A stretch of DNA of 33,132 bases from Phycisphaerales bacterium (lineage in GTDB: Bacteria; Planctomycetota; Phycisphaerae; WQYP01). Of the stretch, positions 67-3,428 are shown piece after piece; positions within the stretch are counted from its first letter, which is position 1; the number at the start of each line of letters is the position of its first letter. Position numbers and translations under genes: made by a program. The notes beneath the pieces are model-generated. The model had not been told where the DNA came from, ran no database searches, and saw only the letters and a program-made list of their open reading frames with translations. Where the stretch lies: positions 1 through 33,132 of the forward strand of contig DAHVEJ010000022.1 of NCBI GenBank assembly GCA_027313145.1. Direction: 5' to 3'.

Positions 67-1758
67 TTATACATTCCGTCTGACCACACCGCATAAATGG
101 CCGCCAGGGGCATTGAGAACCGGAAGTTCACCCGTTGGTTCACAATCCAATTGGCGCTGCACCTGGTCCTGCATCATTTCCGGAAGCAGGCAACGCACGG
201 GTGTTACAACATCCGCCGCCGCACCGATATCCAGAACGCGGGCCAATGGGCGGCAGGCAACCACGTCTGGCATTAGAATGCGACCGACGAAAGCGCCTTT
301 CTCGTCCACTACGTATAGAATTTTCGGAGCATGATTGGAATCCAGAAACCGCTCAACAATCGTCCGGTAATTGGTAGATATTGAAATGACTTCGATATTC
401 GACCTGATGCTCGCTTGAAAAGAAATCTCCAGGTTGTCGGGCAGCCTTTTGATCGCGGGACGAATGTTGTCAACCGGACCGCTATAGAGCGAACGTCGAT
501 CCAACAACCGTGCCGTTATCGCAGCGCCGGCAACTGCTAACAATATTGGCACGAAAATACCCAGCGTGTGATGCGTAAGCTCAAGCAGTAGAACAATTGA
601 GGAAACAGGAGCTTGCGTGGTTGCGGCCAATACCGCGCCGGCCCCAATGACGGCATAACTCCCCGGAGTTGCGCCTGGCCAGACAAGCGACCAGAGATGG
701 CCAAAAAATCCGCCGAAGACAGCTCCGATTGTGATGCTGGGTGTAAAAAGACCGCCTGGCGCGCCGCTGCCCAGGCAACCGGAGGTGGCCAACGGTTTGA
801 GGAAAATCAGCGCCAGCAGCAGTGGCAGGCCCAGTTTATTGGTAAATGTTAGTTCCGTGACATCCTTACCGTTACCCAATAACTGCGGAAATGCAATGGC
901 AACACACCCCAATAGTGTGAACATCAAAAGCGGTGCCATCATAGTCCAGCCGCGCTGCGGCTTATGCCCATCCGCCCAAATAACCAAACGTATAAATAAC
1001 ACTGATACAATTCCGGCCAGCGGGCCGAAGGCCAGTGCCCAGACCAGTTGCCCGGCCATAAAAGTATAATGGGGTACCAGGTAGGTGGCATGGTTGGGCA
1101 GCGTCAGCCAGGAAACCGCCGTGGCCACGAAGGACGCAGTTATGGCAGGAATAATCAGCGGCAAGGCCATAGTACCAAGCAATACTTCAAGCGCAAACAG
1201 GGCACCCCCGAGCGGCACATTATAGACAGCTCCCATACCCGCACCGGCTCCGCACGCGACCAAAAAACGTCTTTCCGCCGGTTCTAACTTAGTCCACCGG
1301 GAAAGTACGCTGGCAACGGCGGCACCCACTTGCTTGGGTGCCCCTTCCCGCCCCAGCGATGCGCCCATGCCAACAATGGTCATCGATAGTGCCGCTTGGA
1401 TCCCGGTACGAATGAACGGCAAGTAACCGGATCGAAACCAGATGGCGTTGGATATGTCGCTATCCTTCCCCGGCCAATAGTGCTTCAGCAGCCAGATCAC
1501 CACGGTTGCCAACATACCTGCGGCCGCCATAATCCAAATGTGCCGCCACGGTGAAACAAGTTCAGCGGCACGCTGAAAATCACCGGAACTGTAGGAATAT
1601 GACCAATGTTGCACCACCGCCAGCAGTGCCATCAGCAAAGACGCCCCCAGCCCGGCACCGATACCGGTAATCACAACCAGCAACCAGAATCGTGGTGAAA
1701 AATTCAATGCCACGTAACCCGATGAATCATTGGGTTGTATGAATGGCATTGTTTTCAT
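67..1758 (-). CDS. ClC-family chloride channel / H+-Cl- antiporter with C-terminal CBS-like region
   Basis: This 563-residue membrane protein has the ClC fold: about ten hydrophobic segments from residue 20 to 425, then a soluble tail of roughly 130 residues resembling a CBS pair. The filter motif GREGAP is at 136-141 with the gating glutamate E138, and GLFTP is at 336-340. The first anion-binding loop, usually GSGIP, is replaced by GKDSD around 97-101, so the anion site is not standard. ClC proteins move Cl- or other anions across the inner membrane, often with proton exchange, and help in acid resistance. The gene lies 10 bases after the truncated P-type ATPase on the same strand, so co-transcription is likely. 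Family is clear; ion, and channel versus antiporter, cannot be read from sequence. No clear ribosome site precedes the ATG; a second ATG is three codons in. Confidence 0.9.
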   Translation of the reverse strand: MKTMPFIQPNDSSGYVALNFSPRFWLLVVITGIGAGLGASLLMALLAVVQHWSYSYSSGDFQRAAELVSPWRHIWIMAAAGMLATVVIWLLKHYWPGKDSDISNAIWFRSGYLPFIRTGIQAALSMTIVGMGASLGREGAPKQVGAAVASVLSRWTKLEPAERRFLVACGAGAGMGAVYNVPLGGALFALEVLLGTMALPLIIPAITASFVATAVSWLTLPNHATYLVPHYTFMAGQLVWALAFGPLAGIVSVLFIRLVIWADGHKPQRGWTMMAPLLMFTLLGCVAIAFPQLLGNGKDVTELTFTNKLGLPLLLALIFLKPLATSGCLGSGAPGGLFTPSITIGAVFGGFFGHLWSLVWPGATPGSYAVIGAGAVLAATTQAPVSSIVLLLELTHHTLGIFVPILLAVAGAAITARLLDRRSLYSGPVDNIRPAIKRLPDNLEISFQASIRSNIEVISISTNYRTIVERFLDSNHAPKILYVVDEKGAFVGRILMPDVVACRPLARVLDIGAAADVVTPVRCLLPEMMQDQVQRQLDCEPTGELPVLNAPGGHLCGVVRRNV

Positions 1759-1768
1759 TATTGTTTTC

Positions 1769-2755
1769 TCATGTACTCACGAGGCGACGCATTAACGGCT
1801 TTTTAACAACGTCCAGAATGAACATCATAACAATAGTGGCGGCCAGCAATCCCAGCACCATCATAATGGGCACCGGAGCCATTAAAATTCCAAACACCGC
1901 CATTGCCGATACCACGACCACATCTCCGGCGGTGGCACAGAGTAAAAATGTTCCGGGCCGCGATTTCCAGAAAGCGCGACTTTCACGCACCAGATACACT
2001 GTGGCCAAGCCGCTGAATACCAACGCCAGAAAGACCAGCGTTTGTGTTGCCGGCAACTTCATGAAATGTCGGCCCATATAAAATACCGCGAAGCAGTATA
2101 AGAGCCAGGAGATGGCAATCACAGCAGACGACCACATCAATACACGAATATTCCAACGATCCGGATGGGGTGACGGCGTAACACGATCACTGGCCAGTGA
2201 CATCGTGACAAAATCATTGGCGAATAACAGCAGTAAAATCAGCCGGGGCGTGATTACCAGTGAACCGGTTAAAGCCGACTGATCAACTTCTATATTGCCC
2301 TGAATCAGATGGGCATCTGCGGGAACCATGTCTCCCATACGCAGATAAATACAATCACCGGGCACCAGATCACGGGCGGGCACTGGTAGCCATTTGCCAT
2401 CGCGCATGACGCGGGCGTTTATCTCCAGCCGGTGGCGGAGAATTTCCAAGGCCGCCTGTGCGCGGCCCTCTTCAACAAATCCCAACACCGCATTGCCGAC
2501 CAGCAGCAAGGCAATAATAATCGCTTCAACCGGTTTACGCAGAGCCATTTCCAGGATGAAGGTGATCTCCAGCATCCATGGAACCGGTGCCCAGAACTTC
2601 ATAAGAAAAGCACGAATGGGATGCGACTTTGGCTCGAGGACGGCGTTGGGGCCAAATTTTTTCAGCCGCTCCGCCGCCTCCTGCGTTGAAAGCCCTTTAA
2701 CGGCACCAATCGTTGGAATGGTGGCGAGATTGGGGGCGGTAACGGACGGAGCCAT
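1769..2755 (-). CDS. P-type (PMA-like) H+-ATPase remnant lacking the phosphorylation and nucleotide-binding domains
   Basis: Residues 1-164 match the N-terminus, first membrane pair and actuator domain of plasma-membrane-type (P3A) H+-ATPases, including VPGD (131-134), GDMVPAD (141-147) and the start of the actuator loop VDQSALTG (157-164). The sequence then jumps directly into the M5-M6 region (LLLLFANDFVTMSLASD, about 174-190) and continues to the C-terminus. The DKTGT phosphorylation site and the whole P and N domains, several hundred residues in a family of about 800-900, are absent, and the TGES catalytic motif is cut to TGS. The join keeps the frame and the rest of the ORF is intact. 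An AAGGA ribosome site lies about 10 bases before the ATG. As shown it cannot be an ATP-driven pump; it may be a deletion relic, a repurposed membrane protein, or an assembly collapse. Confidence 0.85.
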   Translation of the reverse strand: MAPSVTAPNLATIPTIGAVKGLSTQEAAERLKKFGPNAVLEPKSHPIRAFLMKFWAPVPWMLEITFILEMALRKPVEAIIIALLLVGNAVLGFVEEGRAQAALEILRHRLEINARVMRDGKWLPVPARDLVPGDCIYLRMGDMVPADAHLIQGNIEVDQSALTGSLVITPRLILLLLFANDFVTMSLASDRVTPSPHPDRWNIRVLMWSSAVIAISWLLYCFAVFYMGRHFMKLPATQTLVFLALVFSGLATVYLVRESRAFWKSRPGTFLLCATAGDVVVVSAMAVFGILMAPVPIMMVLGLLAATIVMMFILDVVKKPLMRRLVST

Positions 2756-2879: not shown

Positions 2880-3428
2880 TCACGCCTTAAAGAAACCGGG
2901 TTCCGGCGTAACCGCATGGGATTCGGTTCGAGAAGCGGTACGCACCAGTATCTGGTGGGCCTTTTCAACTTCGCTATCTGTTCCGTGCAAAATCACCAGA
3001 AACTTGCTCATCTTGATATCGGTTTCATATTGCAGAACACTATTTTTGGGAATGCCCAGACTATAGAACACCGCTCCCAACGCTGAGAGGCCGCCCACAA
3101 CAACCGCCCCTTCGATCGCGCCAAATATCCATCCCGCCAGCGGGCCGAGCACAAACAACGGACCAATACCCGGCACCATAAACATGGCGGAGCCAAACAG
3201 CAGGCCCATAAGGCCGCCCCAGATGGCACCATATTTTCCCCAGAGCACCGCTCGTTCCGGTGCGTTGTAATAGCCCAGCACATGCTGCTCGTTTTCCATC
3301 CCCTTGCCAAGAATGGAAAGTTTTTTCATATCAAAGCCGGCCTTCTGAAGTTCCTTGACGGCATCCTCCGCCCCTTCATGACTCTCGTAGGTTGCCACCA
3401 CCAAATTTTCAACAGTATCAGCGGACAT
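2880..3428 (-). CDS. DUF1269 / general-stress-protein-17M-like membrane protein
   Basis: The 182-residue protein begins with a small alpha/beta domain (residues 8-45: NLVVATYESHEGAEDAVKEL, then SILGKG) of the type found in general stress protein 17M and DUF1269 proteins. A glycine-rich hydrophobic hairpin follows (about 64-125, with GLMGLLFGSAMFMVPGIG), then a second alpha/beta segment (FLVILHGTDSEVEKAHQIL). Proteins of this type are stress-associated and have no defined biochemical activity. AAGGAG sits 7 bases before the ATG, which fixes the start. It is first in a same-strand run with the ATPase remnant and the ClC gene, but 124 bases separate it from the ATPase start, so a separate promoter for the latter is possible. 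Confidence 0.8.
   Translation of the reverse strand: MSADTVENLVVATYESHEGAEDAVKELQKAGFDMKKLSILGKGMENEQHVLGYYNAPERAVLWGKYGAIWGGLMGLLFGSAMFMVPGIGPLFVLGPLAGWIFGAIEGAVVVGGLSALGAVFYSLGIPKNSVLQYETDIKMSKFLVILHGTDSEVEKAHQILVRTASRTESHAVTPEPGFFKA

Follow-up and report, generated by a model that had tools for sequence, protein, structure and literature searches.

A P3A-type H+-ATPase gene of a Phycisphaerales bacterium, probably inactivated recently by a deletion between 7-nt repeats in a decaying pump–ClC locus

The stretch of DNA analysed here (the window) comprises 33,132 nt from a Phycisphaerales bacterium (GCA_027313145.1, contig DAHVEJ010000022.1). One end of it carries, on the minus strand, the remains of an H+-ATPase (pump) gene, flanked by genes for a ClC-family protein and a stress-type protein; both neighbours had been correctly named in the first-pass annotation. 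Neither RNA families nor tRNAs were detected in the window. The features are as follows, G003 being a genome of the same genus with an intact pump.

67–1758, minus strand: intact ClC-family protein, probably a Cl−/H+ exchanger (PF00654, E value 6.9e-82)
1769–2755, minus strand: internally deleted P3A-type (PMA) H+-ATPase ORF, probable recent pseudogene (two TIGR01647 stretches, no DKTGT)
2265–2755, minus strand: 5′ part of the pump, with the N-terminus, M1, M2 and the first half of the actuator domain to ...VDQSALTG (PF00690, PF00122; AHA2 residues 20–177)
1769–2271, minus strand: 3′ part of the pump, with a remnant of the M5–M6 outer loop, M6 to M10 and the C-terminus (AHA2 residues 663–721; G003 residues 620–786)
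2265–2271, minus strand: deletion join, a 7-nt direct repeat (TAACCGG) that flanks a 1359-bp segment at both ends in intact G003
2880–3428, minus strand: YflT-domain (heat/general-stress-type) protein upstream of the pump (PF11181, E value 7.7e-9)

The ORF at 1769–2755 encodes 328 aa, is free of stops throughout and has AAGGAAA ahead of its ATG, resembling a ribosome-binding site. NCBIfam ATPase-IIIA_H (TIGR01647) matches it in two stretches (E value 1.5e-63) with a score of 215 bits, below the curated family cut-off of 615.5, and Pfam returned the N-terminal domain (PF00690) and positions 5–57 of 181 of E1-E2_ATPase (PF00122), with no Hydrolase domain found. DKTGT does not occur in the ORF, whereas 10/10 aligned full-length relatives possess it, and the TGES of the actuator domain has been lost (LTGSLV, versus LTGES in relatives). 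TIGR01647, Pfam and the alignment together confirmed the initial description of an H+-ATPase ORF lacking the P and N domains but in frame over 328 codons. Its best solved relative is Arabidopsis AHA2 (5ksd), matched over residues 20–177 and then 663–721. With P3A pumps (TIGR01647; AHA2, yeast and Neurospora Pma1) the ORF has in common the N-terminal region, M1–M2, the first half of the actuator domain and M6–M10, its FAND motif aligning to ILND of AHA2; unlike these pumps, it has no TGES glutamate, no P or N domain and no DKTGT, and its ten-helix membrane domain (M1–M10) is incomplete, M3, M4 and M5 being gone.

Intact pump genes are present in genomes of the same family, namely in G003, in G014 and G021 from another genus, in G004/G017/G018 and in genomes more distant still; these genes are ORFs of 782–927 residues, every one with DKTGT. 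The full-length homologues from Planctomycetota MAGs (L056/G003, L057/G014, L058/G021 and L060–L062) have 453 codons more than the window ORF, which was shorter by exactly 1359 bp (453 codons) in 9/9 DNA comparisons with relatives. On shared residues, it is 90% identical overall to the G003 pump. As in the window, ClC and YflT genes lie near the pump in G003 and G017/G018, the YflT gene adjoining the intact pump in G003. The first-pass annotation had proposed looking for the 328-residue form in related genomes; it was found in 0/27 other genomes of the family. No relatives were found among viral contigs, and a limited literature search returned nothing relevant on a P-type ATPase free of its catalytic domains.

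Two observations concern the wider distribution of the pump. Full-length relatives (about 80% identical) occur in L012 and L013, from bins labelled Acidobacteria and Gammaproteobacteria, which implies either transfer of the gene between phyla or mixed bins. Separately, L060, L061 and L062 (G004, G017 and G018) share at least 6.5–13 kb carrying pump and ClC at 99.9% identity across three assigned genera of the family, reflecting either very recent transfer or a misbinned contig.

Comparison with the intact genes places the deletion join within the repeat. The 5′ end of the 1359-bp segment reads ...GCTTTAACCGG^CGAATC in G003 and G014 (LTGES of the actuator domain), and its 3′ end reads ...GCTGATAACCGG^TTC in G003 (ITGS between M5 and M6). 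A single TAACCGG (2265–2271) links both deletion ends in the window, one copy having been retained. Because only 6e-4 of random breakpoint pairs in the G003 gene share microhomology of 7 nt or more, the proposed repeat-mediated deletion across TAACCGG is well supported; replication slippage or RecA-independent misalignment between the two copies may have brought it about. Deletion between short repeats had been suggested before, and that mechanism stands, although the repeat is TAACCGG rather than ACCGGT/ACTGGT: the ACTGGT taken as the repeat partner is merely the adjacent 3′ flank, and the second copy was at the opposite end of the segment that was lost. The window resembles pseudogenes formed by deletion between short direct repeats in having a 7-nt repeat at both ends with one copy left, in being confined to a single genome and in the loss of the gene elsewhere in the genus; it differs in that the frame happens to stay open and a second inactivating mutation is not yet present.

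The two parts of the ORF have different nearest relatives, the 5′ part being closest to G003 (85.4%) and the 3′ part to G014 (91.2% nucleotide identity). Identity to G014 rises from 83.4% before the join to 91.2% after it (Fisher p = 4e-4), which counts against a simple deletion as the whole history. This shift, together with the fragmentation of the assembly (335 contigs), could also be read as an assembly or library artefact, in which the full-length gene is real and 7 nt were bridged by a chimeric read or by misjoining of two contig ends or strains. We consider this unlikely. Assemblers normally use k-mers far longer than 7 nt, so a join of that length falls far below the usual values; the deletion is exactly in register with the relatives and other damage is absent, and no stray piece of the missing segment lies elsewhere in the genome, where the best matches to it are P-type ATPases of 30–31% identity. 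The 3′ side with the ClC gene aligns with G002, of the same genus, at 85.8% identity across 1876 bp, and G003 is matched on either side of the join; a foreign contig end can thus be discounted. A comparable switch of nearest relative is, moreover, seen between intact genes (G003–G004: 82.1, 89.9 and 91.2%), so earlier homologous recombination would explain the shift across the join, pointing to a mosaic ancestry within the pump gene family rather than simple deletion alone. A foreign or misbinned contig end was also considered and rejected, because synteny with G002 holds for the ClC side and likewise for the remainder of the contig.

The pump and the ClC gene are probably in the same operon, judging by their arrangement: the ClC gene starts 10 nt past the pump stop codon (junction TACATGAGAAAACAATAATG), without a strong Shine–Dalgarno sequence. 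The locus has decayed further in a sister species. G002, whose synteny with the window extends to either side of the locus, retains only the last 56 pump codons, within an open 60-codon frame that ends at the same point as the window pump; the ClC gene beside this remnant is intact (87% identical to that of the window), while the YflT and MFS genes present in the window are missing. Their place in G002 is occupied by a tandemly repeated intergenic sequence (L055, 8236–8713) between a ferritin-like gene and the pump remnant. Elsewhere, G003 has an intact pump and a ClC gene broken by a frameshift and stops, G014 and G021 retain the pump with a ClC remnant of only about 22 codons, and the ClC of G025 is broken. 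Among the loci compared, both genes are intact only in the near-identical G004/G017/G018 locus. The decay is thus reciprocal: in the window and G002 the pump is broken and ClC survives, while G003, G014 and G021 (and G025, as far as seen) show the opposite. The loci concerned are as follows.

Window, 67–2755
L055, 9049–10914
L056, 1442–5501
L057, 8042–10790
L058, 3702–6981
L059

The state of the window fits one further step in the decay of a dispensable pump–ClC pair.

The loss extends further than the P and N domains. The M5 helix of the intact G003 control model ends at residue 621 and M6 begins at 628, whereas the window sequence resumes at G003 residues 620–622, i.e. the join lies past M5. 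M3, M4, the whole of M5 and the latter half of the actuator domain are therefore lost as well, in agreement with hydropathy, and the reported join into the M5–M6 helices needs amending accordingly. Since an odd number of helices (three) has been removed and the cytoplasmic actuator fragment runs directly into the former outer M5–M6 loop, the five remaining helices (M6–M10) would be forced into an inverted orientation, an argument against any working product made of membrane parts only. For the short form, the structural model is of low confidence (pLDDT 65.5, pTM 0.47; residues 139–174 below 50) relative to that of the G003 control (pLDDT 79.2, pTM 0.69). P-type pumps work through an aspartyl phosphate that is formed and then dephosphorylated; the 328-residue product would be able to do neither and is almost certainly incapable of pumping, and it would most likely be misfolded or degraded. 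There is only a very slim chance that the remnant (M1–M2, half the actuator domain and M6–M10) is expressed and selected for a passive or regulatory role in the membrane next to ClC.

The open frame is weak evidence for selection. The two TAACCGG copies are read in one frame, as (L/I)TG, which kept the ORF open, and codon structure keeps such repeats in register more generally: of the repeat pairs in the intact G003 gene that are 7 bp or longer and at least 300 bp apart, 161/241 (67%) are in frame, as are 58/81 at 8 bp. With two thirds of short repeats in register, an in-frame result is the expected outcome of such a deletion. We did consider whether, in addition to the gene being a pseudogene, the frame rather than the protein is selected, with translation through the remnant needed for a coupled ClC gene. 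The 10-nt spacing without a strong Shine–Dalgarno sequence and the G002 remnant, which is likewise open and ends at the same place, would suit this proposal; however, the coupling is deduced from spacing, in-frame joins are the default for these repeats, and G014 and G021 lost ClC yet kept the pump. We regard it as possible but doubtful. If the open frame matters at all, it is probably only in allowing translation to reach the ClC gene.

Substitutions polarised to the window branch comprise 7 nonsynonymous and 16 synonymous changes (pN/pS 0.062), a ratio as low as those of intact relatives (0.08–0.14), and the two parts of the gene behave alike (0.066 for the 5′ part, 0.057 for the 3′ part). 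Of the window changes, only T168I and V227M fall on positions that the other eight aligned sequences keep constant, a number not exceeding that seen for intact relatives. The comparison of the two halves, put forward earlier as a check, thus revealed no excess of nonsynonymous change in the remnant and no visible sign of relaxed selection; it fits either a recent deletion or a constrained product. Both are predicted to give the same ratio, which alone does not separate them, but recency is the simpler account. Under neutrality of the remnant, no more than about 2–8% of the window branch could postdate the deletion, bearing out the first-pass suggestion of a very recent event. That annotation had offered selection for a membrane-only product as the other possibility; the 328-residue protein might then be kept as a ClC partner with, for instance, a regulatory or structural role. 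In favour of this are the intact adjacent ClC gene and also the open frame, the ribosome-binding-like start and the low pN/pS in both halves; the last three are expected equally of a maintained short protein and so count against a pseudogene. This proposal nevertheless fares poorly, and we judge it highly improbable: the short form occurs in no other genome of the family, the removal of three transmembrane helices leaves an odd number missing along with half a beta domain and a poor model, an in-frame join is expected anyway, and a recent event fully explains the substitution pattern. The near-complete erasure of the pump beside an intact ClC gene in G002 further indicates that ClC is independent of the pump there.

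Taken together, we favour a P3A-type H+-ATPase gene that was recently inactivated by a single 1359-bp deletion between 7-nt TAACCGG repeats, leaving a pseudogene in a decaying pump–ClC operon, and assign this reading a probability of roughly 0.77. In one step, the deletion would have taken out M3, M4 and M5 along with the P and N domains (including DKTGT) and the second half of the actuator domain, in which the TGES glutamate lies. The intact homologues in relatives, the repeat at both ends of the missing segment, the uniqueness of the short form and the more advanced decay in G002 all speak for it. Ordinary, recent gene decay seems to describe the event better than the origin of a new membrane protein does. 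The case carries a caution, in that a frame left open by a large internal deletion resembles selection, yet remaining in frame is the default in a codon-structured gene. For the pump–ClC pair itself, separate lineages have lost one partner or the other.
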